Positions 1,413 through 20,118 of a stretch of DNA of 22,147 bases are shown here, one piece after another. Origin of the DNA: a virus; IMG/VR virus record IMGVR_UViG_3300037808_000540, positions 1 to 22,147 of that record; one strand, given 5' to 3'. The first letter of the stretch is position 1, and every line of letters begins with the position of its first letter. The notes below the pieces were generated by a model, which saw nothing but the letters and a program-made list of their open reading frames with translations, did not search any database and was not told where the DNA came from. Made by a program: the position numbers and the translations under genes.

Positions 1413-1742
1413 TCAGATATCAAATATTAGTTTATCATATAAAACAGTATCATAATCTGTTATCTCTTGAACATTGATATTAAGATATTTTAAATATGTA
1501 TTCAATTCAAGATGAGTCGATTCCGGAACGCTATGGAACAAAATAACTGATAACGCTCTTGGATCAAATACATTATTTAATATTATAACAGTATTAAGAA
1601 TAAGTCTACAACGTTTATCTTCTTCCCCAAGATATCTAATAAGATGTCTTATCTTACTAAAATCTTGTAAGAAGATTCTAGTATCAGATGCCACATCATT
1701 ATAAAATCGAGCAGCATATGATTTAATCTCACTTTCAGTCAT
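1413..1742 (-). CDS. Conserved small phage protein, unknown function (109 aa)
   Basis: 109 residues, mostly helical in appearance. It opens MTESEIKSYAARFYNDVASD, followed by FLQDFSKIRHLIRYL and a hydrophobic LILNTVIILNNVFDP stretch. I recall similar small proteins (TE.EI.SY...FY.DV, then RHI.R) in T4-like cyanophage genomes where they are uncharacterised. The start overlaps the stop of the upstream 75-aa gene (ATGA), so it is translationally coupled. It is the last gene of a three-gene run (2163 to 1413) before a late promoter. No catalytic motif is visible. Confidence 0.65.
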   Translation of the reverse strand: MTESEIKSYAARFYNDVASDTRIFLQDFSKIRHLIRYLGEEDKRCRLILNTVIILNNVFDPRALSVILFHSVPESTHLELNTYLKYLNINVQEITDYDTVLYDKLIFDI

Positions 1743-2190: not shown

Positions 2191-2751
2191 TTATTTATCA
2201 GTCATCAACGTTTGCATTAATTTATACTCAGAGTGTAACTTACTCGGCATTAACTTCTTATATGCATTATAGTCATCATCAATAATAGCTTGTCTAACAT
2301 CAGTAGCACTCGCAATACGCTTCGTCAATTTAAAGTCTATGTTATACTCAAATTCAGGTTCTAATGTCATACGCTTGAATTGCTTCTCGTATGAAGCTAA
2401 CCTATCTTCACCAGCGAATACTGCAGTCAATTCTTTACCTTCATATCTCAACTCTGCGGCAATCTTAGGTAAAAATCCAGAACTGATCTCTCTTACTTCC
2501 GCATGTGGCGCTACCATCTTGATCCACTTAGTCTGTGTTTTAGCGTCAAATGGATTCTTTTTCTTATCATTAGATGAATCTTTACCCTTCACTAATAATA
2601 TAATAGGATTATCACCCATCTCCTTTATTATCGCAAGATGACCTATATGTAACGGTGCCATACGACCTAAAAATAATGATACTTTAGGAGCGTTATCATC
2701 TCGAGGTAATATCTCCTTACCTTCATTCACAAAATCTTTAAACAATTTCAT
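2191..2751 (-). CDS. NMNAT-like nucleotidyltransferase with capsid-targeting-like N-terminus
   Basis: 186 residues. After the N-terminal peptide MKLFKDFVNEG, residues 24-40 carry the cytidylyltransferase-superfamily signature KVSLFLGRMAPLHIGH, with the HxGH nucleotide-binding motif at 35-38. Near residue 145 there is IASATDVR, the usual second motif (ISxTxxR). Such folds transfer AMP or CMP to NMN, pantetheine or other phosphates. GR(M/F)xPxHIGH is most like nicotinamide-mononucleotide adenylyltransferases, so a role in NAD synthesis is the best guess. The first ten residues match the T4 capsid-targeting pattern ending [V]-N-E, suggesting packaging in the head. The start overlaps the stop of the ligase-like gene upstream (ATGA). 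The substrate is not proven. Confidence 0.75.
   Translation of the reverse strand: MKLFKDFVNEGKEILPRDDNAPKVSLFLGRMAPLHIGHLAIIKEMGDNPIILLVKGKDSSNDKKKNPFDAKTQTKWIKMVAPHAEVREISSGFLPKIAAELRYEGKELTAVFAGEDRLASYEKQFKRMTLEPEFEYNIDFKLTKRIASATDVRQAIIDDDYNAYKKLMPSKLHSEYKLMQTLMTDK
2192..2199 (-). promoter_or_regulatory. Late promoter octamer overlapping a stop codon
   Basis: GATAAATA on the minus strand. The octamer is written by the last codons of the preceding gene: GAT AAA TAA encodes Asp-Lys-stop. It lies 28 bases before the start at 2163. Confidence 0.65.
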
Positions 2752-3896
2752 TCTACTATTCCTCTAACTCTTAAATCAGCAACTATGTTATTAATCAACT
2801 CTTTCCGTTCTCGTGTTAATCCTGATGCTTTATGCACTCTCTTCTTTTCTCTAGGCAATGCAAACAATACAACTCGGAATACATCTTCAGCCCACCAACT
2901 CTTAATCTTTATCATCTGACTAAATCCAACAGGCAACATCTTATGTGTTACAGAAGAGAATCTATTCTCTAGTGCACTATCTTTATACATATCAATATCT
3001 TTAAACTGCTTAGACACTTTATGCATCAATGAACCAGTTAATGCAGCAGCTAATCTAATATACTTATCATCCAAACTCTTCTCTTTATTAATCTTCTTTA
3101 ATGTAGTCTTATTAGTCATAATAGCATCATATGAAGACTTTATATTCTTGAAGATAACATCTTTCAAAGTGTCATTATAAGTATTATCATTCATCTTCAC
3201 TTTTTTCATCTTAACTGTATCAGTAAAGCCTGGATCTACAATCTTACTCATTGATCCATCATCAAAGTATATCACAATACCTTCAATTAGATCATCAATT
3301 AATCCACTAACACTCTTAGGTGGTAAGAATAAGCCTAAGATGAATTTGGTAAAATCAACTTGTTTATAATCTTCTGGATTATTCAAGAAGTCTTTGATCA
3401 TACCTTTCTGTTTATTATTCAACTTACCTTCAAACATAATAGGAGGGGGAGCTATATCAAATAACTTAGCCATCTCTATATTAATAGGATTATTAGGCAA
3501 CAACCTTTTACCATTGAGTTCACTGTAAGATATGATCAATCCATTCTTAGGTGTTACAGGATGTTTAATGATAGGCTCAAATTTACCAGTAAACATTTCA
3601 GCATATATTCTAATACCATCTGGCATCTGTTGCCAATCGGATTGTTCTATACGCTCAATGAATGGCTCAAAAAGATCCATACCAGCTCGTTTAACTTTAT
3701 CAATCTCGATTTTACCTTCTCTTCCATAAAAGACAAGTTCACCATTCTCTTTACCAAAAACGAATGCACTTACATCAATCTTAAAGTTCACTATAATGTA
3801 TTGTGAGAGTAACTTATCAACAAAAGACTCACCCTTCTTCGTGAGTATTTCAGAGAAGTGCACTAATTCATTAAGGTAACTTTTAAATGTTTTCAT
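2748..3896 (-). CDS. Putative polynucleotide ligase-like nucleotidyltransferase with capsid-targeting-like N-terminus
   Basis: The start is placed at the ATG giving MKTFKSYLNE, 48 bases inside the longest frame, because five neighbours begin the same way and GATAAATA lies exactly 5 bases upstream. This leaves 382 residues. Motifs in the order of covalent nucleotidyltransferases are visible: K39-I-D41 (motif I, Kx[D/E/H]), FYGREGK near 56-62, IRIYAEMF at 95-102 (motif III), IEGIVIYF at 204-211 (motif IV) and SKIVDP at 217-222 (motif V). This suggests an ATP-dependent RNA or DNA ligase fold; motif I lacks the usual Gly (KIDV). The C-terminal 160 residues are lysine-rich and unfamiliar. It is coupled to the NMNAT-like gene downstream. 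Confidence 0.6.
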   Translation of the reverse strand: MKTFKSYLNELVHFSEILTKKGESFVDKLLSQYIIVNFKIDVSAFVFGKENGELVFYGREGKIEIDKVKRAGMDLFEPFIERIEQSDWQQMPDGIRIYAEMFTGKFEPIIKHPVTPKNGLIISYSELNGKRLLPNNPINIEMAKLFDIAPPPIMFEGKLNNKQKGMIKDFLNNPEDYKQVDFTKFILGLFLPPKSVSGLIDDLIEGIVIYFDDGSMSKIVDPGFTDTVKMKKVKMNDNTYNDTLKDVIFKNIKSSYDAIMTNKTTLKKINKEKSLDDKYIRLAAALTGSLMHKVSKQFKDIDMYKDSALENRFSSVTHKMLPVGFSQMIKIKSWWAEDVFRVVLFALPREKKRVHKASGLTRERKELINNIVADLRVRGIVE

Positions 3897-3901
3897 ATTA
3901 A

Positions 3902-3909
3902 TATTTATC
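3902..3909 (-). promoter_or_regulatory. Late promoter octamer, predicted leaderless start
   Basis: GATAAATA on the minus strand followed by exactly five bases (TTAAT) and the ATG at 3896. In T4 late promoters +1 lies six bases after the octamer, here the A of ATG. There is no Shine-Dalgarno. It forms one arm of an inverted repeat with the plus-strand octamer at 3914-3921. Confidence 0.6.
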
Positions 3910-3913
3910 ATCT

Positions 3914-3921
3914 GATAAATA
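3914..3921 (+). promoter_or_regulatory. Late promoter octamer of the first GIY-YIG gene
   Basis: GATAAATA on the plus strand, divergent from the octamer at 3909-3902. The expected start of transcription is near 3927, three bases before the leader hairpin. Confidence 0.6.
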
Positions 3922-3929
3922 TACGAAAA

Positions 3930-3985
3930 GGAATGATGAACCAATCACCATTCCCTTTCTAACATAACAATACGGGAGTATTATC
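3930..3985 (+). promoter_or_regulatory. Leader of first GIY-YIG gene: hairpin plus ribosome-site hairpin
   Basis: GGAATGATG (3930-3938), a 7-base loop and CACCATTCC (3946-3954) form a 9-bp stem with one A.C mismatch on the plus strand. On the minus-strand RNA this mismatch becomes a G.U pair and the stem is followed by TTTT, as in an intrinsic terminator of minus-strand transcription. A shared sequence CCCTTTCTAACA follows, then AATAC-ggga-GTATT, a small stem with the ribosome site in its loop, and ATG at 3986. Confidence 0.55.
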
Positions 3986-5296
3986 ATGCATACATCTATT
4001 TATAACGGCCTCAACTTTTACGTTTATCTTATTACTGATCTCAATCCTATAGGAACAGAGATGTATTATATTGGGTCATCACATCGTAAAGAGCTACAAG
4101 AGAATAACATAAATCCAGAACTAGATACTTATTTTGGGTCTTCTTCTGTTAAACATTTTAGAGCTCTTCAAAAATCCAAATCACCTCAATTAGAACGCAT
4201 TATTATTAAAACATTTTCTTCTAAGAAAAGATGTTTAGATTATGAGGAGAAGATACAAAGAGATCATGATGCCGCTTCCAATCCTTTATTCTACAACAAA
4301 TGTTATGCTAATCGTGGATTCTCAACAACTGCTGAATCGCAACTGAAAACAGTAAAAACAAAACTCACTAATGTGGATGAGAATGGATTAAATGTATTTG
4401 AAAGAGCTATCCTTAAATCTAACACAACGAGATTAAAAGATATAGATAGTAACGGATTGAACTCTTATCAAAGAGTTGGAGTTAAAGCAAAAGAAACTAG
4501 ATTAAATGATATCGATGATGATGGATTAAACTCTTATCAAAGAAGTGCATTTAAAGTAAAAGAAACTAAATTAAATGACATCGATGATGACGGATTGAAT
4601 ACAAATCAAAGAAGTGCATTTAAAGTAAAAGAAACTAGATTAAATGATATCAACGATGGATTGAACTCTTATCAAAGAGCTGGTGCTAAAACTTGTGCAT
4701 CTCGATTAAATAATATAGATGATGATGGATTAAATTCATACCAAAGAAGTGTATTTAAAATAAGTGAAACTAAATTAAATAATATAGATGATAATGGATT
4801 GAATTCTTATGAACGAGGTGTTATTAAAACTAAATACACTAAATTAAATGATATAGACGATAGTGGATTGAATTCTCATGAACGAGGTGCTATTAAAACT
4901 AAATACACTAAATTAAATGATATAGACGATAGTGGATTGAATTCTCATGAACGAGGTGCTATTAAACACATCAAAACTGTAAATAATGTAAAATGGAAAA
5001 ATACTACCGGAAAAGACGCTGCACAGAAGAGAAGTAAAACGTTATGTGGTCACAAGTGTTACGGATTTAAAGGAGTGGAGGTTGTTCACACTCCTAAAGC
5101 ACTCGCTGCTGCTATTAAAAAACATTACGGATGTAGTTTGAGCTCATCTCGTATTCATGAATTAGCTAAAAGTAATTTCAAAACAATCATCACGAGAAGA
5201 GGGAATAGTCCATTTCTCCAGTCCCTAGAAGATGATCCTACTGGTAAATCATATCACGATTTAGGGTTTTATTATTACGAAGATGTTAAATTATGA
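3986..5296 (+). CDS. GIY-YIG homing-endonuclease-like protein with nine 23-residue repeats
   Basis: 436 residues. Residues 10-105 form a GIY-YIG nuclease domain: FYVYLITD (GIY-like strand), YYIGSS at 27-32 (YIG), R34 as the likely catalytic arginine, DTYFGSS at 47-53, and DYEEKIQRD at 85-93 with the likely metal-binding Glu before NPLFYN, as in the Seg/free-standing phage enzymes. Residues 125-330 are nine tandem units of 23 residues (one is 22) of the form LNDIDxDGLNSYQRxxxK, and one unit of another type (VKWKNTTGKDAAQK) follows. The C-terminal 85 residues (YGFKGV ... LGFYYYED) are shared with its two paralogues. It is the only plus-strand gene locally and overlaps the tail of the gene at 5291 by 6 bases. 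Probably a free-standing homing endonuclease; the target is unknown. Confidence 0.8.
   Translation: MHTSIYNGLNFYVYLITDLNPIGTEMYYIGSSHRKELQENNINPELDTYFGSSSVKHFRALQKSKSPQLERIIIKTFSSKKRCLDYEEKIQRDHDAASNPLFYNKCYANRGFSTTAESQLKTVKTKLTNVDENGLNVFERAILKSNTTRLKDIDSNGLNSYQRVGVKAKETRLNDIDDDGLNSYQRSAFKVKETKLNDIDDDGLNTNQRSAFKVKETRLNDINDGLNSYQRAGAKTCASRLNNIDDDGLNSYQRSVFKISETKLNNIDDNGLNSYERGVIKTKYTKLNDIDDSGLNSHERGAIKTKYTKLNDIDDSGLNSHERGAIKHIKTVNNVKWKNTTGKDAAQKRSKTLCGHKCYGFKGVEVVHTPKALAAAIKKHYGCSLSSSRIHELAKSNFKTIITRRGNSPFLQSLEDDPTGKSYHDLGFYYYEDVKL
4358..4975 (+). repeat. Nine tandem 69-bp units coding 23-residue modules
   Basis: In-frame tandem array encoding units that each begin T/S-[KR]-L-x-[DN]-[IV]. The last two units (residues 285-307 and 308-330) are almost identical in DNA over about 60 bases, which points to recent duplication. 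One unit has lost one residue. Confidence 0.85.
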
Positions 5297-6490
5297 CTTA
5301 TGCATAACCTTCATGTACATATTAACCTTAGCCTCTAATTGCGGATGTGCTTTAATTTTCAAGAGTTCAATTAGTTTATTATACATAGCCATCTTAATCT
5401 CTAAATCCTCTCTTGGATTTTTAGGCTCAATAGTTTGTGTCCTTCCATCTTCTCCAAACAATATTAACATGAACCTATAATTCACATCTTCCTTACTCTT
5501 TTTATCAAGATACTTATTAGCTATCGCTAATGTCTTAACAAAACTATCTAACTCCTTCTTAGGTATCTTCTTAGAATCAATCTTGCCCCCAAATGCTATC
5601 TTAATGAGGTTTCCTAGATTTCTATCATAAGTCCTCTCTTTAGGCTTCAGCTTACGGAACACCCTCTTCCCATTTACTAAGATAGGTTTATTCTTTGAAT
5701 CAACCATTAACTCATATGCAGGATTCGTACCAACACCTGCTTCTCCTCCATACACTATAAGACTCAAGTAAGCAGGCTGTTTCTTTTTGATTGTTATCTT
5801 ATCAGGTGTACTAGATGGTGTCGCTTCTAAGAAGTTATCTGTTACTTGTGAAGTGATCCCAATCAACGCTCTCCATAAGAATTTTGATGCTGCTCCTTTA
5901 ATTCCTGCCTTAGCGTCTTCAAAGCTACTCGAGTGTATATGAGCACTCCAATCGGTTTGTTTACCTTGTACGAATTCTGATAATTCCATATCTACTTGAG
6001 CAGATACTTCTATATCACCATAACGAGCTTTCACTATACATATTATAGTATTGCCTAATTTATCTTGAGTTTTAGCGTTATTCCCTATATACTCTAATCC
6101 CGGAACCAACTCCTTTCCTCTAAGTTTAAGAAGTAAGTTATATAGATCAGGACCATATTCTCGAGGGAATGCAACATCAATATCACCAGCAGTTTTTTTA
6201 TATTTAAGCACTTCTTCATCAGAGTAATCAGCACTCATAATGAAACTAGTGGAGCCGTTAAAGATACCAGCATTAGTGATTTCCCCAGTATCCGGCCATA
6301 GAGGATAATTATACTCTTTCTCGAATATAGTATTAAGCTTTAAGAAAAATTTTTGGAAAGATTCAACAAATGTTTTACGGCCAATATCCTCTAATGGGAT
6401 ACGAGCTGCATCATGCTCAACTCCATGTATATCAGGGATTGTTATATTACCCCCTTCATTCAGATCTATATATTCTTTAAACGTATACAT
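5291..6490 (-). CDS. Pol-beta-fold nucleotidyltransferase with capsid-targeting-like N-terminus
   Basis: 399 residues. The N-terminus MYTFKEYIDLNEG resembles the neighbouring capsid-targeting-like peptides, ending L-N-E. Residues 77-106 show the pol-beta superfamily signature: FNGSTSF with G79-S80, then D103-I-D105 in AGDIDVAFP, and a third candidate carboxylate D167 in SAQVDMEL. Members transfer nucleotides to RNA, proteins, drugs or antitoxins; the acceptor here is unknown. The spacing GS-x22-DxD is longer than in many members because of a charged insertion (DYSDEEVLKYKK). The start has AAGG 8 bases upstream. The stop region overlaps the 3' end of the first GIY-YIG gene tail-to-tail by 6 bases. 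Confidence 0.65.
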   Translation of the reverse strand: MYTFKEYIDLNEGGNITIPDIHGVEHDAARIPLEDIGRKTFVESFQKFFLKLNTIFEKEYNYPLWPDTGEITNAGIFNGSTSFIMSADYSDEEVLKYKKTAGDIDVAFPREYGPDLYNLLLKLRGKELVPGLEYIGNNAKTQDKLGNTIICIVKARYGDIEVSAQVDMELSEFVQGKQTDWSAHIHSSSFEDAKAGIKGAASKFLWRALIGITSQVTDNFLEATPSSTPDKITIKKKQPAYLSLIVYGGEAGVGTNPAYELMVDSKNKPILVNGKRVFRKLKPKERTYDRNLGNLIKIAFGGKIDSKKIPKKELDSFVKTLAIANKYLDKKSKEDVNYRFMLILFGEDGRTQTIEPKNPREDLEIKMAMYNKLIELLKIKAHPQLEAKVNMYMKVMHKS

Positions 6491-6510
6491 TAGTGTACCT
6501 TTTTATTTGA

Positions 6511-7875
6511 TTAATGAACTTTAATATAAACAGAAGAGAGATCTGTTGATGATCTAGCATACCTTATCATACCTTTAATTATATCATCTTTATCAGATCT
6601 TTTAGATGTTCCGTTTAAAATATCAATGAACTTCAATCCTAAAAACTTACTATAACGGAAGGAGTGTGCTTTTTGAGGATTTGACATCTTCCCAGAAGTA
6701 GCTTTAAGGATAAAATCTTCTAGTGACATAGATTGTTCATCGGAATATTTCTCATACAGTCTATGAAACTCTTTCCAGAACACGTTATTAGGTTCCTTAG
6801 CTGCTTTTGATACTCGTTTACTATCAGGGAGAATTCTATGCTTCAATCTTCTTAGGAGCATGTTAATCGGGCCTAAACTCATCTTACCCCCACTAGCTAA
6901 CTTCTCTTTAATCTCAGCCTGCCATCCCGTAATCTTACCAAATGCTCTCAATTGAATTGTAGTATTTTTATCTGAGAATAGATACACATCAATTGAATTA
7001 AAAAAATCATTTCGTTTAGATGAAGTTATAAATGAAGAGAATTTATCATCAACAACTTCAACTTCTATATTATAAGCATCTATAGCTACCGATCCCCCAA
7101 TCTTCTTTAAGGATATACCGACTAAATCTCTACTCTGGAATAACCGTTTAATCAATAGATTATAATCATCAATAGATCCACTTCCTCTATTAATCTGCTT
7201 CTCCCCTTCAGATGTTACGAACCAGACATCCCCTGGATTCCATTTATCTGGATTCAAGTCTGTTCCCAATTCCTTTTTCATTAAATCAGTTTTATTTTGG
7301 TATATCTTCTTCATGAATTTAGATCCACGATGCATTGTATACTTGTGATTACCTAGATAGTTGTATATTTTATTCGCTGCTAATATAGTCCCATCAATCC
7401 AATCTTGTTGATTAACGTTTAAGAGATTATCAAACTGCTCATCCACATCAATGTACTTTGCCGCAGATTTTAAATTATCTGAGAGGAGGTGGAGTGTTGA
7501 TATATTCCCTTTAACTACATTAAACGCTAAAGAACAGTACAAACATTGAAGTGATTCCATCAATCTAGTTGACGCTGCCCCTCCTCCTGATCCCTTGCCC
7601 CCTCCAAGTTCTGGGATTTTGAAGAAGTGCCCAATTGTATGAGGACCGTCCGTTGTATCAATAGATGCAGGAATGGACGAAGGATCATCAGATAACACTG
7701 ATAATACCGCTTTATCTATAACAACCTTCTTAGATCCATGTTTATCTACTAATTCAAATTCAAATCCTTGAGAAATCAACTCTTTAAACTTCTCAAATCT
7801 AATTGGATTATCCGAGAAATTCGATCTACTTAGAGACGCTTTTCCTTCAAAGATGTATTGGGTAAATGTTTTCAT
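6511..7875 (-). CDS. Capsid-targeted-like protein with possible PD-(D/E)xK-type nuclease core (unknown)
   Basis: The start is set at the ATG giving MKTFTQYIFEG; 454 residues. After the targeting-like peptide come a glycine-rich segment (ELGGGKGSGGGAAST, about residues 88-102), then MESLQCLYCSLAF, then HRGSKFMKKIY, then KWNPGDVWFV, and about 45 residues later DLVGISLKKIG. The pair NPGDVW ... ISLKK resembles the Asp and (E/S)xK elements of PD-(D/E)xK restriction-like nucleases, but the match is loose. I recall similar marine-phage proteins without function. No ribosome site is present; GATAAATA lies exactly 5 bases before ATG, predicting a leaderless message. It lies just after the stop of the gene at 7880. 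Confidence 0.55.
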   Translation of the reverse strand: MKTFTQYIFEGKASLSRSNFSDNPIRFEKFKELISQGFEFELVDKHGSKKVVIDKAVLSVLSDDPSSIPASIDTTDGPHTIGHFFKIPELGGGKGSGGGAASTRLMESLQCLYCSLAFNVVKGNISTLHLLSDNLKSAAKYIDVDEQFDNLLNVNQQDWIDGTILAANKIYNYLGNHKYTMHRGSKFMKKIYQNKTDLMKKELGTDLNPDKWNPGDVWFVTSEGEKQINRGSGSIDDYNLLIKRLFQSRDLVGISLKKIGGSVAIDAYNIEVEVVDDKFSSFITSSKRNDFFNSIDVYLFSDKNTTIQLRAFGKITGWQAEIKEKLASGGKMSLGPINMLLRRLKHRILPDSKRVSKAAKEPNNVFWKEFHRLYEKYSDEQSMSLEDFILKATSGKMSNPQKAHSFRYSKFLGLKFIDILNGTSKRSDKDDIIKGMIRYARSSTDLSSVYIKVH

Positions 7876-7879
7876 ATTA

Positions 7880-8833
7880 TTATTTATCAATCTCATTGTA
7901 TATCAGTTCAATGACTTTAAAACTCTTCTTATCTAAGAATATTGCCTGCATTGGTTCTGAAGAGTGTATAATTCCCTTTCCATCTTTATCAGCGAAACCC
8001 GCATAACCTAAGGATCGTAATACACTATTCCATTTTCTTGAAGTCTTATTTCCAATTTTGACACCTCTTGGTTTAAACTGTCCTCCAGTAGCAAGCTTCT
8101 CAGCAAGCTTCATAGTAACATACCAAAATATTCCAATAGGCGATTTAAAACGAGCGTTTTGTGCTCCCTGCTTCTCTATAAATGATATACTATTAGCAAT
8201 GAACATATCATTGTGTTTTTTAAGCTCAACTTCAACTTGTGTATAATCTTTATCAAGGGATTGAAATGCATTTACCTTCAACTTAAACTCATCCCAGCTA
8301 ATAACTCCAATCTTAATAACATCATAAACATTTTCAATCATAGATCCAAATACAAGATGCTTAGAATCTTGATTAGAGTTAATACCTATAATAGCTCGGG
8401 TTATCTTTTTAGCTGAGAATAGTATAGCGTCTTTAGTTACAGAGGCCATCGATTCCTTTTCATATAAATCTCTCAACTTCATCATATCTCGATCATAATC
8501 ACTCGATAAGTAATCCTGATTCATGTTTTTTATAAATTTAGTCCCAGTTTGCTTCAACACCCATATATGTTTATATTGACCTGCAAACGGTACTACAATT
8601 CGTTTATGTTTATGATCAAATCCCTTCCAAATCTCTTTTAAAGGGTAAGTGTATATAGATAAGGGAGTATTGTAATCAGACGCTGGATTAATCCCAATCT
8701 TTCGTTTTGAGGTAAAACTGATATACATATCAGAATCATCTTTATACTTTAATAGAGCATCATATGCTGATATTCTAGGATTCTGATCTGGATTCCGTCT
8801 CCGCTCACTGATATACATCTCAAATGTTTTCAT
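7880..8833 (-). CDS. Conserved phage protein with capsid-targeting-like N-terminus, unknown function
   Basis: The start is set at ATG 8833 (MKTFEMYISE), preceded by TTGGAGAG. A 69-base longer frame begins inside a fossil GIY-YIG tail and is unlikely. 317 residues. Segment 38-68 (YISFTSKRKIGINPASDYNT, then PLSIYTYPL) and the C-terminal segment (LGYAGFADKDGKGIIHSSEP then MQAIFLDKKSFKVIELI) are the sort of blocks I recall from uncharacterised large-phage proteins. The closing M/QAI-F-L-D--S-KVIE pattern is vaguely like the end of phage polyvalent-protein ADP-ribosyltransferase domains. An injected ADP-ribosyltransferase would have a parallel in T4 Alt, but this is only a guess. The last codons form the next late promoter. 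Confidence 0.6.
   Translation of the reverse strand: MKTFEMYISERRRNPDQNPRISAYDALLKYKDDSDMYISFTSKRKIGINPASDYNTPLSIYTYPLKEIWKGFDHKHKRIVVPFAGQYKHIWVLKQTGTKFIKNMNQDYLSSDYDRDMMKLRDLYEKESMASVTKDAILFSAKKITRAIIGINSNQDSKHLVFGSMIENVYDVIKIGVISWDEFKLKVNAFQSLDKDYTQVEVELKKHNDMFIANSISFIEKQGAQNARFKSPIGIFWYVTMKLAEKLATGGQFKPRGVKIGNKTSRKWNSVLRSLGYAGFADKDGKGIIHSSEPMQAIFLDKKSFKVIELIYNEIDK
7881..7888 (-). promoter_or_regulatory. Late promoter octamer overlapping stop codon, predicted leaderless start
   Basis: GATAAATA written by the codons Asp-Lys-stop (GAT AAA TAA) of the preceding gene. Five bases (ATAAT) separate it from ATG at 7875, so the T4 rule places +1 on the A of the start codon. Confidence 0.6.
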
Positions 8834-8896
8834 TTGATACACTCTCCAATAACTGTAGTTTCCGTTTGTATACTGTTCACGTCCATCGCAACATCC

Positions 8897-8935
8897 CATC
8901 AAGATTTAGGATTTTACTATTACGAGGATGTTTAG
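8897..8935 (+). pseudogene. Fossil 3' end of a lost GIY-YIG gene
   Basis: The plus strand reads H-Q-D-L-G-F-Y-Y-Y-E-D-V-stop. This matches the last residues of the GIY-YIG gene at 3986-5296 (Y-H-D-L-G-F-Y-Y-Y-E-D-V-K-L); by eye 31 of 36 bases agree. As in the three intact copies, the stop lies tail-to-tail against the stop of a minus-strand gene (here overlapping the TAA at 8934-8932). Nothing upstream resembles the nuclease domain, so a deletion must have removed the rest. Confidence 0.75.
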
Positions 8936-10350
8936 ACGTACTGTGAAACAAGTCTTTCCCAATCATTGATTCCTGCCTTTTTAATAGCCATAGCAGCCTC
9001 AACAGCTCTCATAGTTAGAGTCGAAGAGTTTTCTGATAACGCATCCACAATAGCAAACTTCTCCTCATCTGATACATCTAAATGAATAACTTTAAGGATT
9101 GATTTGATTCGGAGGATTACACTCTCTCTTGTTAAGTTTACATCAATAAACAGTGATCTTGATTGAATAGCAGAGTCAATCTTATTAGGAGGGAGATTAC
9201 TAATAAATATAACTCTAGACGTGAAGATAAACTCTGATGGAAGTTTAACAGCAGAAAGTGAATCAGGATCCAATAACTCTCCATCAACCTTCATCTCATA
9301 TTCCAATCTCTCTTCTGGAGTTAGATTTTGAACAGGGAACGTCGCTTTACTAGTCCACGATAATTTTCTCTTCTCATAAGTATCTAAAGCAGATTTGAGG
9401 ATGTTAACTGCATCAGCATCCTTCCACACACTATCAGAGTCATCAAATACTATAGTCATATCAGTTCTATTTTGATATAGAGCATTATATAAACCAAAGA
9501 CTGATAACTTAGCCCCTTTATAATGTCTCCATCTCGCGTTTGGACCGTCAGGAGATCCAAACATAGATTCTAGAGTTTTTTCGATGTGATACGTTTTACC
9601 AATTCCAGCCATCCCAGCCACAATCATACTATTCTGAGCACCTGATGCAACCACTTTAGCTAAATCCTCAATATCATTAAATACTAAATCGGGATCAGCA
9701 TACTTACGATCTGCTAATATTTTATCAGCTTTTTTCATATTAACTTTAACGCTATTAACTTCTGATGAGCTTATCTTCTTATATCCTCTAAACTCATCAT
9801 TATCCCAATCACCAGATTTATTCAATCGGGATTTGAGACTATGCTGTGTTAATGCTACAGCATCCTCTGCTTCCCACCCTTTAGATAATGCGTAGAGGAA
9901 TAATTTTGACCCTGATTTAACTTGAGTCGCTGCTTCATCTAAACTCTCTTTAATAGGATAATTACCTTTAATAACATAAAGAAGTACATCATTCACTACA
10001 TCTATGATATTATAATGAGGGTATGCTATAGCTGATCGAGAAGGCTTCGACCAATCCATCCCCGCTTCCCAGAAATCAAAAGTATTAAGCTCATTACTCT
10101 TATTCTCGAAACCCTTACCTTTGCTAACTCCTATACGAAGCATCTGACCTTTTTCATTCATATATAAGGCACCAGATCCTTTTATACCATCAGCTTTCTT
10201 AAATTGCACATCAAGGAAGATGGATCCCTCAAGTCTCTTAAACTCACTTCCAACTTTTTTACTAGCTAGAGATGCTAGTAAAGTTAACACTGAGTTAATA
10301 CGTTTAGAGCTGAATTTAACCTCATCCAAATGATCTAAGAAACTTTTCAT
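8932..10350 (-). CDS. AAA+ ATPase with capsid-targeting-like N-terminus
   Basis: 472 residues. It begins MKSFLDHLDE, matching the peptide shared by its neighbours. Residues 15-135 form an extra N-terminal domain (SIFLDVQFKK ... MLRIGVSKGKGFENK). The ATPase core has Walker A GMAGIGKT at 246-253, Walker B MTIVFDDSD at 298-306, a sensor-1 segment RVIFISNLPP and an AIQSRS arginine-finger region. The C-terminal helical lid follows. Within the family it looks closest to the clamp-loader/DnaC-type AAA+ fold, but the substrate is unknown. Its ATG overlaps the preceding stop (ATGA). The stop abuts the fossil GIY-YIG tail. An ATPase inside a phage head would be unusual, so the targeting inference needs proof. 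Confidence 0.7.
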   Translation of the reverse strand: MKSFLDHLDEVKFSSKRINSVLTLLASLASKKVGSEFKRLEGSIFLDVQFKKADGIKGSGALYMNEKGQMLRIGVSKGKGFENKSNELNTFDFWEAGMDWSKPSRSAIAYPHYNIIDVVNDVLLYVIKGNYPIKESLDEAATQVKSGSKLFLYALSKGWEAEDAVALTQHSLKSRLNKSGDWDNDEFRGYKKISSSEVNSVKVNMKKADKILADRKYADPDLVFNDIEDLAKVVASGAQNSMIVAGMAGIGKTYHIEKTLESMFGSPDGPNARWRHYKGAKLSVFGLYNALYQNRTDMTIVFDDSDSVWKDADAVNILKSALDTYEKRKLSWTSKATFPVQNLTPEERLEYEMKVDGELLDPDSLSAVKLPSEFIFTSRVIFISNLPPNKIDSAIQSRSLFIDVNLTRESVILRIKSILKVIHLDVSDEEKFAIVDALSENSSTLTMRAVEAAMAIKKAGINDWERLVSQYV

Positions 10351-10578: not shown

Positions 10579-11130
10579 TCAATTAACAACGATACTATCA
10601 AATTTACTAACTCTAGAGTTAAATGTAGGTTTATTAGACATCAAATCTTGAGTTTGGGGTGATACTGAATAGTTAGTAGATATATCATCAACATCAGAGA
10701 ATGTCATTCGAGGGAAATCAACATTCACCATAAATGATTTTTTATCCTCAGTATACCTATTTTTAATAGTTTTGAATTTAATTTGACCCATCTCAGATAA
10801 CTCATCATTAGTCGTTAATGAAATGAGGAAATCGAGAGTGGCAGCAAGTCCAAATGAATTTTTCGTTAATATGCCATTACAATAGAAAAGATGATCTCCA
10901 GTAACTGAAATATCCACAGTATCCTTAACTCCCACCTCTTCAATAGCAACTATCTCATCATTATAATCTATTTTAGAGTCAGATAATAACATTCTATCCA
11001 AATGCTCTTGACCCATAGATATAAACACTTCAGTGAGGTTTAATAAATCAGTACCAGCGTGTACCAATCCACCTTGTATATATTTTTGCGCTTTTTCATA
11101 ACAATCCTGCTCAAACTCTTTTTGTGTCAT
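10579..11130 (-). CDS. 41: Replicative helicase gp41, C-terminal part with split-intein C-half
   Basis: 183 residues. Residues 1-91 precede the splice point and end HLFYCNGILTKN, the intein block F/G region with the cyclising Asn91 (10860-10858). Ser92 then begins the C-extein SFGLAATLDFLISLTTNDEL, which aligns with T4 gp41 after DIAES. The extein is 92 residues. The residue before Asn is Lys instead of the usual His. About 45-50 N-terminal residues (MTQKEFEQDCYEKAQKYIQG ...) exceed a normal C-intein, but the strong GGAG before ATG 11130 supports this start. A shorter start at M47 would give a C-intein of ordinary size. It must trans-splice with the product of 11184-12542. Confidence 0.85.
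   Translation of the reverse strand: MTQKEFEQDCYEKAQKYIQGGLVHAGTDLLNLTEVFISMGQEHLDRMLLSDSKIDYNDEIVAIEEVGVKDTVDISVTGDHLFYCNGILTKNSFGLAATLDFLISLTTNDELSEMGQIKFKTIKNRYTEDKKSFMVNVDFPRMTFSDVDDISTNYSVSPQTQDLMSNKPTFNSRVSKFDSIVVN
10858..11130 (-). other. gp41 split intein, C-terminal half
   Basis: Codes residues 1-91 of the C-part gene. The core block is VKDTVDISVTGDHLFYCNGI, with His80 as the block F histidine and Lys-Asn at the end. The canonical core (about 40 residues) is preceded by about 50 extra helical residues. Confidence 0.8.
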
Positions 11131-11183: not shown

Positions 11184-12542
11184 TCATTTAGTATTCAATC
11201 TATCCCCAACACACAACCCTAAATCTATCGATTTACGACCACTCTTAGTAGGGAAAACGTGTTGCTTAGATACAATGATAGTTTTCCCCGATTTTAATGT
11301 GATCTTAACACAATCTTTAGGTTTCACGTGATGAGTAGTCACCACAGTCTTATACATCTCATTATCTAAAATCTTATCACCAATTTCAACATCTTTAATA
11401 GCAATGAAATCACCATTAACTAACTCAACCTGCTCTTCTACGTATATACATTCAGCAATACTTGTCATATCAGGATCAGAATCGTTAAATGCACCACGAT
11501 TCGTTTGAGCTGCTGTCCATATTGGAACATTACATTCAATCGCTAATCCCCGCAACTCTTCTGCGACTGCTTTAACGAAATGATAACTATTCTCCGACAC
11601 TCCACTATATCTAGTAGAAGAGCAGATCGCTAGATAATCAATTAAAAGAATATCCGGAGTAAAATCCTTCTTTATTTTCAATTCCTTTAACAACCCTCTA
11701 AACGTTGCTGCAGATGCTGCACCTGTAGGGTATTCCTTTACAATAAGATTACCTTTCACATTACTCATAGCATTCTTAAATTTTGTGGTGTACATATCTC
11801 TATCAAGATGTTCCAACTCATCCATTGGGGTTTTTAGAATATTAGCATCAATACGTTCAGCAATACGTTCCTCAGCCATCTCCATCGTAATATACAACAC
11901 ATTTTTATGTTGTTTTAAATAAGATGCCGCTAATGAACATAAAAATACTGTTTTCCCCACGTTTGTACCCGCCATAGCACAGTTTAACGTTTTTTTAGGT
12001 GCTCCCCCTTTCATTGCCACATTCAATCGGCTTAGATCACACGGTATACGTTCCTCTACGTTATGATAAAAATCATATCGTTCTTCAATATCATCCAAAT
12101 AATCATGACCAACATGATCATCTAAAGATACAGATAACGCATCACTCAGTATATCAGGGAGGGATGTATTAGGCTTTTCATTATCATCAATAATAGAGAT
12201 ACTTTCCATTACAGCATTATATACACTCTTATCTTTGATAAACTGATCTGTTGCATCTATAAGCCAATCATTATCATGAGATTCTTCAGATAAATTTTCC
12301 AATACATCAATCACATTAATATATTGCTGCTCATTAAGATCATCTCGAGAATCAATATTAATAGCAAGAGCATCTTTACTAGGAGCATTGCCATATTTAA
12401 TTGTATATTTTATAATCTCTTCTAGAACCACTCTCTCTGCTGCATCATGAAAATATTCTGGTCTAATATGTGCGATCACTCTTTGAAGATAATCAACGTT
12501 AGTCAATAACTCAGATATTATAACATTTTCAGTTGTGATCAT
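11184..12542 (-). CDS. 41: Replicative DNA helicase gp41 (DnaB family), N-terminal part with split-intein N-half
   Basis: 452 residues. Residues 1-364 are gp41: an N-terminal primase-interacting domain, then the RecA-like core with Walker A MAGTNVGKT (near residue 190-198), KNVLYITMEMAEERIAERID, and Walker B PDILLIDYLAI. It runs to AAQTNRGAFNDSDPDMTSIA-E. At Cys365 (11450) the intein begins. T4 gp41 continues DIAES-x-GL here, and the missing part is encoded by the next gene; the spliced product would be about 456 residues. Gp41 is the hexameric fork helicase acting with the primase. No clear ribosome site exists. TATACT lies 6 bases before ATG, but I see no good -35. The gene starts 21 bases after the stop of the 107-aa gene. 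Confidence 0.88.
   Translation of the reverse strand: MITTENVIISELLTNVDYLQRVIAHIRPEYFHDAAERVVLEEIIKYTIKYGNAPSKDALAINIDSRDDLNEQQYINVIDVLENLSEESHDNDWLIDATDQFIKDKSVYNAVMESISIIDDNEKPNTSLPDILSDALSVSLDDHVGHDYLDDIEERYDFYHNVEERIPCDLSRLNVAMKGGAPKKTLNCAMAGTNVGKTVFLCSLAASYLKQHKNVLYITMEMAEERIAERIDANILKTPMDELEHLDRDMYTTKFKNAMSNVKGNLIVKEYPTGAASAATFRGLLKELKIKKDFTPDILLIDYLAICSSTRYSGVSENSYHFVKAVAEELRGLAIECNVPIWTAAQTNRGAFNDSDPDMTSIAECIYVEEQVELVNGDFIAIKDVEIGDKILDNEMYKTVVTTHHVKPKDCVKITLKSGKTIIVSKQHVFPTKSGRKSIDLGLCVGDRLNTK
11187..11450 (-). other. gp41 split intein, N-terminal half (88 residues)
   Basis: Begins with catalytic Cys (CIYVEEQVELVNGDF), then DVEIGDKILDN, KITLKSGKTIIVSKQHVFPT (block B with SKQH) and ends CVGDRLNTK-stop. 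Length and layout resemble known gp41 split inteins. Confidence 0.85.
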
Positions 12543-13095: not shown

Positions 13096-13372
13096 CTGCT
13101 ATCTCCATCATTGACTTTAACATTAACATTGGCTCTCCTTTATTATAATATGTACCGTATATAGATGGGTCATCCCTAGATAAAGCATGTGCATAAAATA
13201 TAATACCATGGTGATCTATAACATCATCAAGACTAACATCAACTAGATCATTCTCATTTATAAATACAATAGCATCTTGGGTGAAGATACCCTTCATATC
13301 AGAATATCTATCAACTCCATGTTGATCTACACACAACTTATATCTTTTAAGATCTACATCAAGCTCACTCAT
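13088..13372 (-). CDS. Small phage protein, unknown function (94 aa)
   Basis: The start is taken at ATG 13372 (MSELDVDLKRYKLCVDQHGV), which overlaps the stop of uvsX (ATGAGTGA) and has GGAAGG upstream. The longer frame would run 69 bases back inside uvsX and is unlikely. The 94 residues contain DMKGIFTQDAIVFINENDLV and HHGIIFYAHAL. It is acidic and has no recognised motif. Its position immediately downstream of uvsX suggests coexpression with recombination genes. Confidence 0.6.
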   Translation of the reverse strand: MSELDVDLKRYKLCVDQHGVDRYSDMKGIFTQDAIVFINENDLVDVSLDDVIDHHGIIFYAHALSRDDPSIYGTYYNKGEPMLMLKSMMEIADE

Positions 13373-14579
13373 CCATATCACCTTCCATAGGAGAGCTACC
13401 CACTTCATAAGAACGTGTAATAGCTGTTTTAAATTCATCACTCAACAATAATGGATCCCAAAACTCAGCACACGATGAATCTCCCGCTCTCCAGTTCTTA
13501 TCACCCTCAATCATGGGTCTAGTATACCATCCATTCTTAGGTGAGGTAACATACTCCAACTGTCTAGCAATCTCAAGCAATCCTGAATACTTATCAATAC
13601 CACCTTCCCATGATACTGTTATAGGTAACTTAGACTTCTCCCTAACATATCGACTTTTCTCAATGTTCATGATAAAATCATAACCCTTAACCTCAGTACC
13701 CTTCTTATTCTGACGTCTTCCCATGATGAAGATTGTGTCAGCTGAGAGGTACACACCCTGCCCTCCTCCAACGATAGCTTTAGGATATAAACCAATCTCA
13801 TTATATACATGATTAACAGCAATCATAGGAATATCCTTCATTGTTAGATAAGGAGTAACCATACGGAATAACGATTTCAACATCTTAGCTCTTGACATAT
13901 CAGCAACTGATTTTCCATCAATAGCATCATCCATTTCCTTCTTACTGGATAGATTACCGATACTATCAATAAAGATTATAACCTTATCATCTTTGCTGAT
14001 AGCTTCTAACTGTTGCATGATATCAAACTTCAACTCCTCAATATTCTTGACTGGAAGATGTATAACTCTATCAACATCTACATCATTAGATGTGAAGTAA
14101 TTCTCAGGCATACCGAATTCTGAATCGTAAAATAAACATACAGCATCTTTATGCTTACCCATATAAGCAGAAACGAATTGTAAAGAAACTAAACTATTAT
14201 GATGAATTAATCCATGACTATCATCATTAGTATACCAATGTGGATCTGATATAGCTATATCATACACTTCTTGATCTTTCTTGAAATTGTCAACAGATGT
14301 GACTAGTAAATTTCCATGTAATGATTTTAATTGATCACCTGGGACTAAATCTTCTGTAACAACAGCATTACCGATTGAATTCATAAAAGCATGCCGATCA
14401 CCAACAGTCATCTTAATAGCACCATCTGAGATATCGATATCATATGTATCAGATTGTTTCTTATTGATACCTATAACCTTTGTAAATTCTCCGTTATGAT
14501 CCTTAACATGATATTCTATCATCTGATCTTTTTCAATCAACTCATACAACTCTTTATACGTTAATTTTAACCGCTTCAT
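13365..14579 (-). CDS. uvsX: Recombinase UvsX, C-terminal part with long split-intein C-half
   Basis: 404 residues. Residues 1-128 are the intein C-part: MIEYHVKDHNGEFTKVIGI, YDIDISDGAIKMTVGDRHAF (block B), then VYDIAISDPHWYTNDDSHGL and IHHN with cyclising Asn128 (14198-14196). Ser129 starts the C-extein, which follows T4 UvsX closely: CLFYDSEFGMPENYF, VIIFIDSIGNLSSKKE (Walker B), SRAKMLKSLFRMVTPYL, AVNHVYNE, GGGQGVYLSADTIFIMGRRQ, KYSGLLEIA. UvsX is the RecA-like strand-exchange protein. Ligated to the 65-residue N-part, the product would be 341 residues. A strong promoter (14642-14614) and ribosome site (GGAGAAAGTGA-ATG) drive this half independently. Confidence 0.92.
   Translation of the reverse strand: MKRLKLTYKELYELIEKDQMIEYHVKDHNGEFTKVIGINKKQSDTYDIDISDGAIKMTVGDRHAFMNSIGNAVVTEDLVPGDQLKSLHGNLLVTSVDNFKKDQEVYDIAISDPHWYTNDDSHGLIHHNSLVSLQFVSAYMGKHKDAVCLFYDSEFGMPENYFTSNDVDVDRVIHLPVKNIEELKFDIMQQLEAISKDDKVIIFIDSIGNLSSKKEMDDAIDGKSVADMSRAKMLKSLFRMVTPYLTMKDIPMIAVNHVYNEIGLYPKAIVGGGQGVYLSADTIFIMGRRQNKKGTEVKGYDFIMNIEKSRYVREKSKLPITVSWEGGIDKYSGLLEIARQLEYVTSPKNGWYTRPMIEGDKNWRAGDSSCAEFWDPLLLSDEFKTAITRSYEVGSSPMEGDMDE
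14196..14579 (-). other. UvsX split intein, C-terminal half (128 residues)
   Basis: Contains nearly the whole intein fold, including the block B His (GDRHAF) that normally lies in the N-half, and ends HHN before Ser+1. This is the atypical split layout with the break very close to the N-terminus. Confidence 0.85.
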
Positions 14580-14716: not shown

Positions 14717-15601
14717 ATGTATACATCTATTTATAGCGGCCCTAACTTTTATGTTTACTTAATCACTGACCTCAATCCTATAGGAACAGAGAAGTATTAT
14801 ATTGGTTCCTCTTATCGTAAAGAATTACAAGAAAATAACATTAATCCTGAAGAGGATACTTATTACGGATCATCCTCTGTTGAGCATTTTAAGATCCTTC
14901 AAAAAACCCAATCATCTCAATTAGAACGTGTAATAATTGAAACATTTGATAACATCAAAGAATGTTTAGATTATGAGGAGAATTTACAACGAGAACACAA
15001 AGCAGCTATTAATCCTTTATTCTACAACAAAGGATATGCTAATAAAGGATTTGCCCCATCATTTAATTCAAACGCTAAACACATTGAAACTATTACTGAT
15101 CCTGAATGGAAAGCAACTACAGGAAAAAAACAATCAGCTAAAAGATTAGAAACTATTACTGATCCTGAATGGAAAGCAACTACAGGAAAAAAACAATCAG
15201 CTAAAATGATAAACACCAGAAACGATCCTGAGTGGAAAGCAACTACAGGAAAGGATAGTACCGCTAAACACATTGAAACTATTACTGATCCTGAATGGAA
15301 AGCGACTATCGGGAAGGATAAGATACGAAAACATGTAGAGACAAGACACGGTTACAAATTTTACGGGTTCAAGGGAGTTGGAGAATTCCACTCAGCTCAA
15401 GCTCTAGTAAACGCTATTAAAGAGATACACACTTACAGTGTACTAGCGAGAACTATCCGAAGATTGTGTAAACAAGATTTTAATGCTGTAATCAGTAAAG
15501 GCAGCATCAATCGAAGTTTATTCCTTCAAAACCTCCCCAATAATCCTATAAATAAGACTTGGAAAAGTTTAGGATTTTATTATTATGAAATAGCTAATTA
15601 A
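14717..15601 (+). CDS. GIY-YIG homing-endonuclease-like protein between the two uvsX halves
   Basis: 294 residues. The GIY-YIG domain (residues 10-105) is nearly identical to its paralogues: FYVYLITD, KYYIGSS (26-32), R34, DTYYGSS, DYEENLQRE, NPLFYN. Residues 120-203 are four 21-residue repeats of the type ITDPEWKATTGKxxxAK. The C-terminal part has YGFKGVGEFHSAQALVNAIK, an RTIRRLCKQDFNAVI helix-turn-helix-like stretch and the shared tail TWKSLGFYYYE. The gene runs opposite to uvsX, and its stop lies 5 bases from the stop of the N-part. This is the position of homing genes in fractured split-intein genes, so the likely target is an intein-free uvsX. Cleavage site not determined. Confidence 0.82.
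   Translation: MYTSIYSGPNFYVYLITDLNPIGTEKYYIGSSYRKELQENNINPEEDTYYGSSSVEHFKILQKTQSSQLERVIIETFDNIKECLDYEENLQREHKAAINPLFYNKGYANKGFAPSFNSNAKHIETITDPEWKATTGKKQSAKRLETITDPEWKATTGKKQSAKMINTRNDPEWKATTGKDSTAKHIETITDPEWKATIGKDKIRKHVETRHGYKFYGFKGVGEFHSAQALVNAIKEIHTYSVLARTIRRLCKQDFNAVISKGSINRSLFLQNLPNNPINKTWKSLGFYYYEIAN
15074..15325 (+). repeat. Four tandem 63-bp units coding 21-residue modules
   Basis: Units start A-K-x-x-x-T and contain DPEWKAT[TI]GK. The first two units are almost identical in DNA. This module type also appears once in the first GIY-YIG protein and, degenerate, in the third. Confidence 0.85.
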
Positions 15602-15606
15602 TTAAT

Positions 15607-15846
15607 CTAATCAGCAACGTAAACAACAATAGGTGTATCAGGTCCACAACATTTAAAATGTTTTGAAGGCCCACAGACTAAAGTCAATCCAGAAGTGAAA
15701 CCTTTATCCAATTGTCCTGAACACGCAATATTAAGAATAGGTAATTCAGTAACTGTATTATCTTTATCAGTGAAAAATTCAGAATTACTCAAAACCTCAA
15801 CATCTTCAATCGTACTAGCTTTTTTTAACTTATCTAACAAACTCAT
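15607..15846 (-). CDS. uvsX: Recombinase UvsX, N-terminal part with ultrashort split-intein N-half
   Basis: 79 residues. Residues 1-65 match the start of T4 UvsX (LLDKLKKAST ... FFTDKDNTVTELPILNIACS ... GLTLVCGPSKHFK). They end inside Walker A, just before the Ser that binds nucleotide phosphate with the Lys. Residues 66-79 are CCGPDTPIVVYVAD, an intein block A (C-x-x-x-D-T-x-I) followed by a stop. The Ser and the rest of UvsX come from 13365-14579 after trans-splicing. AAGGAG precedes ATG, and a sigma70 promoter lies at 15905-15877. The gene looks truncated but is not a pseudogene, because the two junctions fit exactly. Confidence 0.9.
   Translation of the reverse strand: MSLLDKLKKASTIEDVEVLSNSEFFTDKDNTVTELPILNIACSGQLDKGFTSGLTLVCGPSKHFKCCGPDTPIVVYVAD
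15610..15651 (-). other. UvsX split intein, N-terminal half (14 residues)
   Basis: Cys66 to Asp79. It contains only the first beta-strand region of an intein (block A) and is among the shortest natural N-inteins I am aware of. Confidence 0.85.
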
Positions 15847-18819: not shown

Positions 18820-20118
18820 ATGTATACATCTATTTATAGCGGCCCCAACTTTTACGTTTATCTTATTACTGATCTCAATCCTATAGGAACAGAGAAGTAT
18901 TATATTGGTTCCTCAACACGTAAAGAACTCATTGAGAAAAATATTAATCCTGAAGAGGATACTTACTTTGGATCTTCTACCGTTGAGCATTTCAAGATCC
19001 TTCAAAAAAATCAATCCCCTCAATTAGAACGCATTATCGTTAAAACATTTTCGTTTAAGAAAGATTGTTTAGATTACGAGGAGAAGTTACAAAGAGAATA
19101 TGAGGCAGCTTCAAATCCTTTATTCTATAATCTATCGTATGCTAACTCGTTTATGAATTCAGTAGAAAGTATTAATAAGGGACTCGAAACTAAAAGAAAT
19201 AATATTGATGATAATGGGTTAAATGAATTTAACAGAACTAGCTTGAAGATATCCAAACACCATGAAGATGTAAATTGGGTTAATGATGTGTGGAAACCAG
19301 CATGCATCCAGATAGGTAAGAGTAACAGCAAGTATCACAATAACCCTGATTGGAAATCTACAGTGTGGGTAGCAGCTGTAGATAAAATTAAATCACATTA
19401 CAACGATCCTGATTGGATTGATAATGTTAAAATACCATCAACTAAACGGATGATTGAGTCTAAACTAAACAACATAGACGAAGATGGTTTGAATACATTT
19501 CAGAGGGTTGGTATTAAAGCATCTAATACGAAACTAAATGATATAGACGAAAATGGTTTGAATACGTTTCAGAGAGTTGGTGTTAAAATGCTTAATACTA
19601 AATTGAATGATATAGACGAAAATGGTTTGAATGCTTGTATCCGAAACACAAGAAAAGGAAATGAGACTAAATTAAATGATGTAGATGTAAATGGTTTGAA
19701 TACGTTTCAGAGAGTTGGTATCAAAACCCTCAACACTAGATTAGATGATATAGATGAAAATGGTTTAAATTCGTTTAAGAGAGCTGGTATTAAAATGCTT
19801 AGCACAAAATTAAACGATGTGGATGATACTGGTTTAAATTCATTTGAGAGAGCTCATAAAAAATCAACCAAAACTAAAGGATTTAGATATAGTAACATAT
19901 GTCATATTGAGTTAGGGTGTTTCAGAACTGGAGTATTAATGGCTGATCAATTACCACACTTATCACCATCTGTGATCATAAGATTAGCACGGACAAATTT
20001 CAACCAAGTGATAACCAAATTATCTTATCTTCGTAACAACTACCTTCAATATTTAGGAACAGAGGATGATATTGTTGGTTTGACGTGGAAAGATCTAGGG
20101 TTCTATCTAGACAGTTAA
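18820..20118 (+). CDS. GIY-YIG homing-endonuclease-like protein with mixed repeat modules
   Basis: 432 residues. GIY-YIG domain at 10-105 as in the paralogues (FYVYLITD, KYYIGSS, R34, DTYFGSS, DYEEKLQRE, NPLFYN). The middle is mixed: one 23-residue unit of GLN type (124-146), a stretch of degenerate DPxW-type units (about 147-213: NWVNDVW, NNPDWKSTVW, NDPDWIDNV), then six GLN-type units (214-351). The C-terminus (ADQLPHLSPSVIIRLARTNF, then TWKDLGFY) is related to the others but lacks the YYYED ending. It lies between gene 43 and a small conserved gene, and its stop overlaps that gene's stop (GTTAAC). Probably a free-standing homing endonuclease. Confidence 0.8.
   Translation: MYTSIYSGPNFYVYLITDLNPIGTEKYYIGSSTRKELIEKNINPEEDTYFGSSTVEHFKILQKNQSPQLERIIVKTFSFKKDCLDYEEKLQREYEAASNPLFYNLSYANSFMNSVESINKGLETKRNNIDDNGLNEFNRTSLKISKHHEDVNWVNDVWKPACIQIGKSNSKYHNNPDWKSTVWVAAVDKIKSHYNDPDWIDNVKIPSTKRMIESKLNNIDEDGLNTFQRVGIKASNTKLNDIDENGLNTFQRVGVKMLNTKLNDIDENGLNACIRNTRKGNETKLNDVDVNGLNTFQRVGIKTLNTRLDDIDENGLNSFKRAGIKMLSTKLNDVDDTGLNSFERAHKKSTKTKGFRYSNICHIELGCFRTGVLMADQLPHLSPSVIIRLARTNFNQVITKLSYLRNNYLQYLGTEDDIVGLTWKDLGFYLDS
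19189..19872 (+). repeat. Mixed array of 69-bp GLN modules and degenerate DPxW modules
   Basis: One GLN unit (19189-19257), a DPxW block (19258-19458), then six GLN units (19459-19872) with patterns such as LNDIDENGLNTFQRVG. Confidence 0.8.

Follow-up and report, generated by a model that had tools for sequence, protein, structure and literature searches.

Six consecutive genes with leaders resembling the T4 capsid-targeting sequence downstream of gp41 in an environmental T4-type phage: a probable operon of head cargo

The head of phage T4 carries internal proteins (IPI, IPII and IPIII) that share a leader of about ten residues, MKT[YF]xxF[I]xE, with aromatic residues at positions 4 and 7, an aliphatic one at position 8 and Glu at position 10, followed by unrelated mature bodies, in a genome that also encodes gp21 and gp22 (Mullaney and Black 1996; PMC9026906). 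In IPIII positions 4 and 7 matter for targeting and positions 8 and 10 for cutting, and a ten-residue leader suffices to carry foreign proteins into the head, from which they are then delivered to the cell (PMC9026906). The principle of the capsid-targeting sequence (CTS) is already known, and the ip genes of T-even phages have previously been found by their leader (PMC12373910). We have analyzed here a 22,147-nt fragment of a T4-type phage (IMGVR_UViG_3300037808_000540, hereafter the window), in which gp43, uvsX, gp41 and a cassette of six genes follow one another on the minus strand. These six consecutive genes (P6 to P1, from position 10350 down to 2191) have related N-termini (the tag), and we consider the cassette very probably a T4 CTS-type operon of head cargo. 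The novelty seems to lie in an operon of several tagged enzymes at a conserved locus of environmental T4-type phages, in the breadth of the tagged families, in the evidence for a cut site in front of a native GGN start and in the link to an NMNAT known from virions. In the open literature that we searched, the terms 'capsid targeting' and 'cyanophage' appeared together only in a review of T4 head assembly, so this link is seemingly not drawn in that literature.

Other described systems resemble the cassette in part. The T4 ADP-ribosyltransferase Alt is also a head-carried enzyme with an N-terminal leader (MELITELFDE), but it is a single gene, and no Alt-type domain was detected in the cassette. 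DarB of phage P1, a defence protein carried in the virion, has a packaging signal at its N-terminus, although its sequence is unrelated and 30 residues were shown to be sufficient (PMC9024508). In the giant phage SPN3US many head-carried ejection proteins are trimmed by the prohead protease gp245, but their propeptides are long, several of more than 100 residues (PMC5694885). The cyanophage virion protein T4-GC190 (S-SM1, S-SCSM1, S-CREM2 and S-SZBM1) is alike in enzyme family, in the kind of leader and in its detection in virions, and its operon lies beside gp41 in S-SM1 and S-SCSM1; unlike here, the strict tag is found in those operons only on the NMNAT gene, plus one small open reading frame (ORF) in P-SSM7. 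The published descriptions of T4-GC190, in the parts consulted, make no mention of the leader.

The strict pattern M-x-x-[FY]-x-x-[FYH]-[ILV]-x-E fits five of the six starts exactly. Along the minus strand these are MKSFLDHLDE in P6 (gene 8932-10350, tag 10321-10350, with His at position 7), MKTFEMYISE in P5 (7880-8833, tag 8804-8833), MKTFTQYIFE in P4 (6511-7875, tag 7846-7875), MKTFKSYLNE in P2 (2748-3896, tag 3867-3896) and MKLFKDFVNE in P1 (2191-2751, tag 2722-2751). The leader of P3 (5291-6490), MYTFKEYIDLNE at 6455-6490, has two extra residues before the Glu and stands directly in front of GGN. Plausible ribosome-binding sites precede P1, P3, P5 (GGAG) and P6, and the start of P4 is coupled to the stop of P5; P2 has no clear ribosome-binding site, and its start lies about 90 bases from an inserted GIY-YIG-like ORF. 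The tags of P2, P4 and P5 begin at an internal ATG, 16, 7 and 23 codons past the first possible TTG or ATG in frame, respectively.

From the residue frequencies of the window proteins, the strict pattern has a probability of 1.8e-4 per gene, that is, 0.004 expected in 24 genes versus five seen (P = 7e-15), and at internal Met residues of long ORFs it occurs once in 4545. The synonymous codons used within the tag differ (TTT/TTC 78/21, TAT/TAC 59/40), which indicates that it is the peptide, rather than the DNA sequence, that is under constraint. As a positive control, the strict pattern applied to 100 kb of T4 recovered IpII and IpIII (both MKTYQEFIAE), together with gene 61.1. T4 IpI starts with MKTFKEF and has its TITE site further along, a parallel to the longer leader of P3. 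The original prediction of six genes with related N-terminal peptides, similar to those of the T4 internal head proteins, is borne out on both counts: all six lie on the minus strand within 2191-10350.

Two longer contigs of the same virus include the whole window, IMGVR_UViG_3300024339_000032 (G001, 46 kb) at 100% identity and a 65-kb contig (G002) at 99.99%. G001 encodes four head genes, all far above the Pfam cut-offs: the portal gp20 (PF07230, E 3.9e-154), the prohead protease gp21 (PF03420, E 1.7e-41), the core scaffold gp22 (PF25623, E 1.9e-53) and the major capsid protein gp23 (PF07068, E 1.9e-110). The absence of a gp21-type protease from the genome had been named beforehand as something that would speak against head cargo, and the protease is present in the contig that contains the window; no S77 protease lies within the 22-kb window itself, which is uninformative for a fragment. 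Judged by eye, the N-terminal regions of gp21 and gp23 of G001 contain sequences (LITE and LKE) that appear compatible with cutting by gp21. Together with the residues at tag positions 4, 7, 8 and 10 and the tagged relatives in cyanophage virions described below, the four head genes favor the predicted head-packaged cargo with a capsid-targeting tag.

The clearest evidence for a cut site comes from P3, whose body begins with GGN in almost every standalone orthologue, either with no more than the Met before it (MGGN) or, in other phages, behind a leader. In all 17 distinct P3 leaders, which vary in length and sequence, there is E at position -1 and I, L, V or M at position -3 before GGN. A cut after the E that directly precedes GGN in every leader would give the start of the untagged relatives, and such a pattern would follow from a protease re-creating the native N-terminus. 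A 2207-aa fusion of a ligase-like protein with P3 has an internal LLRE|GGN junction between the two parts. In the AF2 models residues 1-13 of P3 (pLDDT 88.6) and 1-8 of P4 (pLDDT 91.5) have no confident structure, and the rest is well ordered.

Relatives of P1 have been found in virions. According to the parts of the published reports consulted, NMNAT/cytidylyltransferase was identified by mass spectrometry in CsCl-purified virions of S-SCSM1, S-SZBM1 and S-CREM2 and in purified virions of S-SM1 (T4-GC190). The peptide numbers there are low (two or three), and in S-SZBM1 the NMNAT is the only enzyme among 30 virion proteins. All four of these NMNAT-like proteins carry the tag (MKKFSAFLNE in S-SM1, MKSFLQFLKE in S-SCSM1, MKNFSSFLTE in S-CREM2 and MRFRQFIIE in S-SZBM1, this last form being shorter by one residue). 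For S-SCSM1_91, AAESGASVQAK is the peptide expected of a cleaved protein and EAAESGASVQAK, fully tryptic, that expected of an uncleaved one; for gp154 of S-CREM2 the peptide expected of an uncleaved form is NFSSFLTEADEK. A relative of P4, S-SCSM1_90, is an annotated virion protein in a phage with mass-spectrometric virion proteomics, yet it is untagged; a search for a P4 relative in S-SZBM1 found none.

The operon recurs in many other T4-like contigs, with two to five tagged genes directly downstream of gp41. The gene types found at this place elsewhere are AAA (P6 type), P4, DUF6267 ligase-like, NMNAT-like, P3, HAD/PNK-like and GNAT, and several of these genes are tagged in L267, L287, L345, L349, L335 and L343; a search of the literature on DUF6267 gave nothing useful. 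P6 orthologues directly downstream of gp41 in other phages show ..FK.YL[TA]E after a short extension. Across 78 distinct gp41 loci, the 8 kb on the downstream side (499 kb searched in all) hold 75 tagged ORFs and the upstream side (122 kb) holds none, a count biased by the fact that the loci were picked partly for tags or for P3/P4. In many phages the operon adjoins gp43-uvsX-gp41. The corresponding locus of Xanthomonas phage X1 and Stenotrophomonas phage Moby consists of gp41, P3, two genes, NMNAT and gp26. The operon downstream of gp41 is the most regular setting of the tag.

The original prediction proposed a pattern search to see whether the tag marks a single cassette, and this idea has to be abandoned. 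A scan of the IMG/VR DNA with MKTFxxY[IM]xE, compared with two control patterns in whole-collection scans, gave at least 120 matching stretches versus 12 and 20 for the controls. Among the matches listed, 114 of 122 were placed at the start of an ORF, versus two of 12 for the first control (Fisher 7e-9), and the 114 tagged proteins of at least 60 residues among them fell into at least 54 unrelated clusters. Position 6, which the pattern leaves free, holds Q (24) or E (14) in 38 of the tagged set, as in T4. An S77 protease was found in nine of the 12 genuine tagged contigs longer than 100 kb, and two further tagged contigs without it carry the T4 portal; it was found in none of the 15 control-pattern contigs, which are mostly smaller. 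For contigs longer than 20 kb the figures are 13/36 tagged versus 0/14 control (Fisher 0.01), a weak contrast with contig size unmatched.

The enzyme labels given in the original prediction stood up unevenly. P1 matches PF01467 with 22.4 bits (cut-off 21) and phrog_3041 (E 4e-16), and its alignment keeps the NMNAT-type motifs HIGH and IASATDVR (HxGH and ISSTxxR-type), all of which points to an NMNAT/cytidylyltransferase-like protein. In P3 (phrog_19290) the residues G79 S80, D103 D105 and D167 are invariant in 14 sequences and correspond to the GS, DxD and third Asp of the pol-beta superfamily; P3 thus appears to keep the catalytic pattern of these nucleotidyltransferases, and the activity is predicted. 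Its top Foldseek matches, RelP and pol mu, are weak (probability about 0.9, but E >0.01 and low TM). P6 is assigned by its sequence to the NrdC.10-type AAA+ ATPases (phrog_1250, E 4.9e-36; T4 NrdC.10, E 1e-15; Walker A GMAGIGKT, Walker B TIVFDD). The ligase label of P2 is the one that fared less well, with KIDV where KxDG is expected and no match in the Pfam search; EGIVI is present, and a P2 homologue is fused to a P1 homologue in the huge phage LR756500, and we regard P2 as putatively ligase-like. P4 belongs to phrog_1462 (E 4.6e-55), a family of unknown function, and no fold counterpart of its AF2 model was found in the PDB; the invariant D216 and SLK257 had suggested a PD-(D/E)xK nuclease, for which the fold search gave no support. 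P5, also of unknown function, had no relatives in the collections searched, and a sequence search against solved structures gave no useful match for P1, P3 and P6. The bodies had been described as unrelated, which holds in that the tag is a module on differing bodies; on the other hand, P1-, P2/ligase- and P3-type domains are fused in single proteins of other phages: ligase-like with NMNAT-like (L335), P3 with NMNAT-like (L349) and ligase-like with P3 (L359). These fusions suggest that P1, P2 and P3 may act together.

A mechanism modeled on T4 would run as follows. Each protein would be made with a leader of 10-12 residues serving as a CTS, whose aromatic residues at positions 4 and 7 would bind the gp22-type prohead core, so that the protein is built into the prohead; a gp21-type protease would then cut after [ILV]-x-E and release the mature protein within the head ahead of DNA packaging. 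The released proteins would travel in the virion, most likely pass into the cell along with the DNA and act before phage gene expression. Packaging and cleavage are strongly supported; that P1-P6 undergo them in this virus we infer, as we do the injection of the tagged proteins. The most likely job of the cargo would be nucleotide/NAD repair or counter-defence by the NMNAT, the ligase-like protein and the nucleotidyltransferase together: the NMNAT could make up for NAD consumed by NAD-depleting defences, and RNA or DNA ends could be mended by the other two. A broader proposal, for which we claim only a tentative standing, is that environmental T4-type phages possess a dedicated and pre-loaded nucleotidyl-transfer kit (NMNAT, ligase-like protein, pol-beta-type nucleotidyltransferase, AAA+ and others). 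The kit would be synthesized either as individual tagged proteins or as a polyprotein that the prohead protease processes, and once injected it would replenish NAD or mend nucleic acid cut by the host's defences ahead of phage transcription. The exchangeable tag would, in this view, make virion cargo of dozens of unrelated genes.

Several observations weigh against the assignment of the cassette to head cargo of the T4 type. The T4 internal proteins are small basic anti-restriction proteins, whereas the six proteins here are larger, for the most part enzyme-like, and encoded in a single operon next to gp41. In phages X1 and Moby the P1 and P3 orthologues are without a tag, as are most cyanophage orthologues of P4, even though S-SCSM1_90 is annotated as a virion protein; conversely, S-SCSM1_30 is tagged (MKTFKQFMSE) but not listed as a virion protein. 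The tag is, from these S-SCSM1 proteins, neither the sole route into the virion nor perfectly predictive. In the parts of the reports consulted, the NMNAT of S-CREM1 is not reported among its 14 virion proteins, and the authors of the S-SCSM1 and S-CREM2 studies say that the enzymes could be carry-over after CsCl purification. If this applied to all the cyanophage detections, they would represent abundant enzymes carried over from the lysate, and the likeness of the tags some unrelated constraint shared by N-termini. The low peptide numbers would fit, but the recurrence of the NMNAT in four independent studies (and as sole enzyme in S-SZBM1), the tag on four of four copies and a leader/GGN pattern that would be pointless without cleavage make this very improbable. 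Even less credit can be given to chance, or to a translation- or DNA-level repeat common to gene starts: three GIY-YIG elements and repeats do lie nearby, but the probability calculated above (P = 7e-15), the codon variation, the at least 54 unrelated families and the control patterns have led us to reject it.

A more serious alternative accepts packaging and cleavage and places the work of the tagged proteins in the head or its assembly (core structure, maintenance of DNA ends or of the genome) and not in the infected cell. T4 IPIII does influence how the head assembles, and many proteins of the core do not serve as effectors (PMC9026906); moreover, some small tagged proteins, among them a 122-aa family encoded beside tail/baseplate genes, have no known role. 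Yet enzyme-like folds abound in the cargo (NMNAT, ligase-like, nucleotidyltransferase, AAA+, HAD/PNK-like and GNAT), and the T4 CTS proteins that have been studied best (Alt and IPI-III) leave the head by ejection and do their work in the cell, so we hold this explanation to be unlikely while giving it more weight than any other rival. The adjacency of the operon to gp43-uvsX-gp41 might instead suggest a leader that docks the proteins onto some other machine of the phage or the host, for example the neighboring replisome. This we find improbable, given that at the head-targeting positions the leader agrees with T4 IPII/IPIII and with IPI, that the gp21 motif ends exactly before the native GGN start and that tagged relatives occur in virions. 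Taking the leader as a head signal, the tag explains the repeated finding of NMNAT-like enzymes in cyanophage virions. The head contents that enter the cell first are poorly known outside T4, and with a readable leader candidate injected proteins can be listed from sequence alone, uncultivated phages included, while existing virion proteome data become testable for cleaved N-termini. The leaders are also a ready set of natural cargo tags.

Some tagged genes lie outside the cassette. In the same virus, a gene at G002:35381-36109 (L030:15381-16109) begins with MKSFKEYVNESF, with a TTG start and GGAG upstream, and encodes a protein of 242 aa with a weak phosphoribosyltransferase-like match; it is the only further tagged ORF across two overlapping contigs of this virus. 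T4 gene 61.1 (18966-19130, 54 aa), which adjoins genes 61 and 41, starts with a full CTS-like leader (MKTFKEFIKE) and is a candidate overlooked T4 head protein. The 122-aa family makes up 20 of the 114 tagged proteins and adjoins tail/baseplate-type genes in L072, L099 and L112, contigs in which the S77 protease domain lies inside a protein of 640-690 aa. The huge phage LR756500 (L010, 6636-13110) has an offset leader, M[KE][FY][VIL]Kx[YF]xxF[ILV]N[EDK], shared by four or more genes in a cluster, one of which is ligase-like and has a LILE|GG junction.

Around the cassette, the conserved upstream neighbor is the N-terminal part of the gp41 DnaB-type helicase (11184-12542, minus strand), which ends in an apparent intein, followed by what its sequence indicates to be the remainder of the intein and the C-terminal part of gp41 (10579-11130, minus strand). 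Downstream, an untagged DUF7207/phrog_407 gene (1413-1742, minus strand; PF23837 E 5.6e-13, phrog_407 E 2.6e-13) forms a conserved boundary of the locus. Between P3 and P2 there is a divergent insertion, a GIY-YIG homing-endonuclease-like ORF with 69-bp repeats (3986-5296, plus strand), which is not cargo. It is one of three such ORFs (with 14717-15601 and 18820-20118), each divergently upstream of a minus-strand phage gene, and the three contain in-frame tandem repeats of 63 and 69 bp (4432-4966, 15074-15308 and 19460-19854). The T4 late-promoter word TATAAATA was not enriched in a late-promoter test (five found versus 5.2 expected). It occurs on the minus strand in each of the three ORFs (3997-4004, 14728-14735 and 18831-18838), 11 bases into the ORF and 101-149 bases from the start of the next gene. 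Possibly the elements bring a substitute promoter with them; since the word stems from conserved coding sequence, its three occurrences may go back to one event. Finally, both gp41 and UvsX (15607-15846 and 13365-14579) consist of two ORFs broken within intein-like sequence, the halves of UvsX having a homing-endonuclease ORF between them. These splits resemble the split-intein 'fractured genes' known from marine metagenomes.

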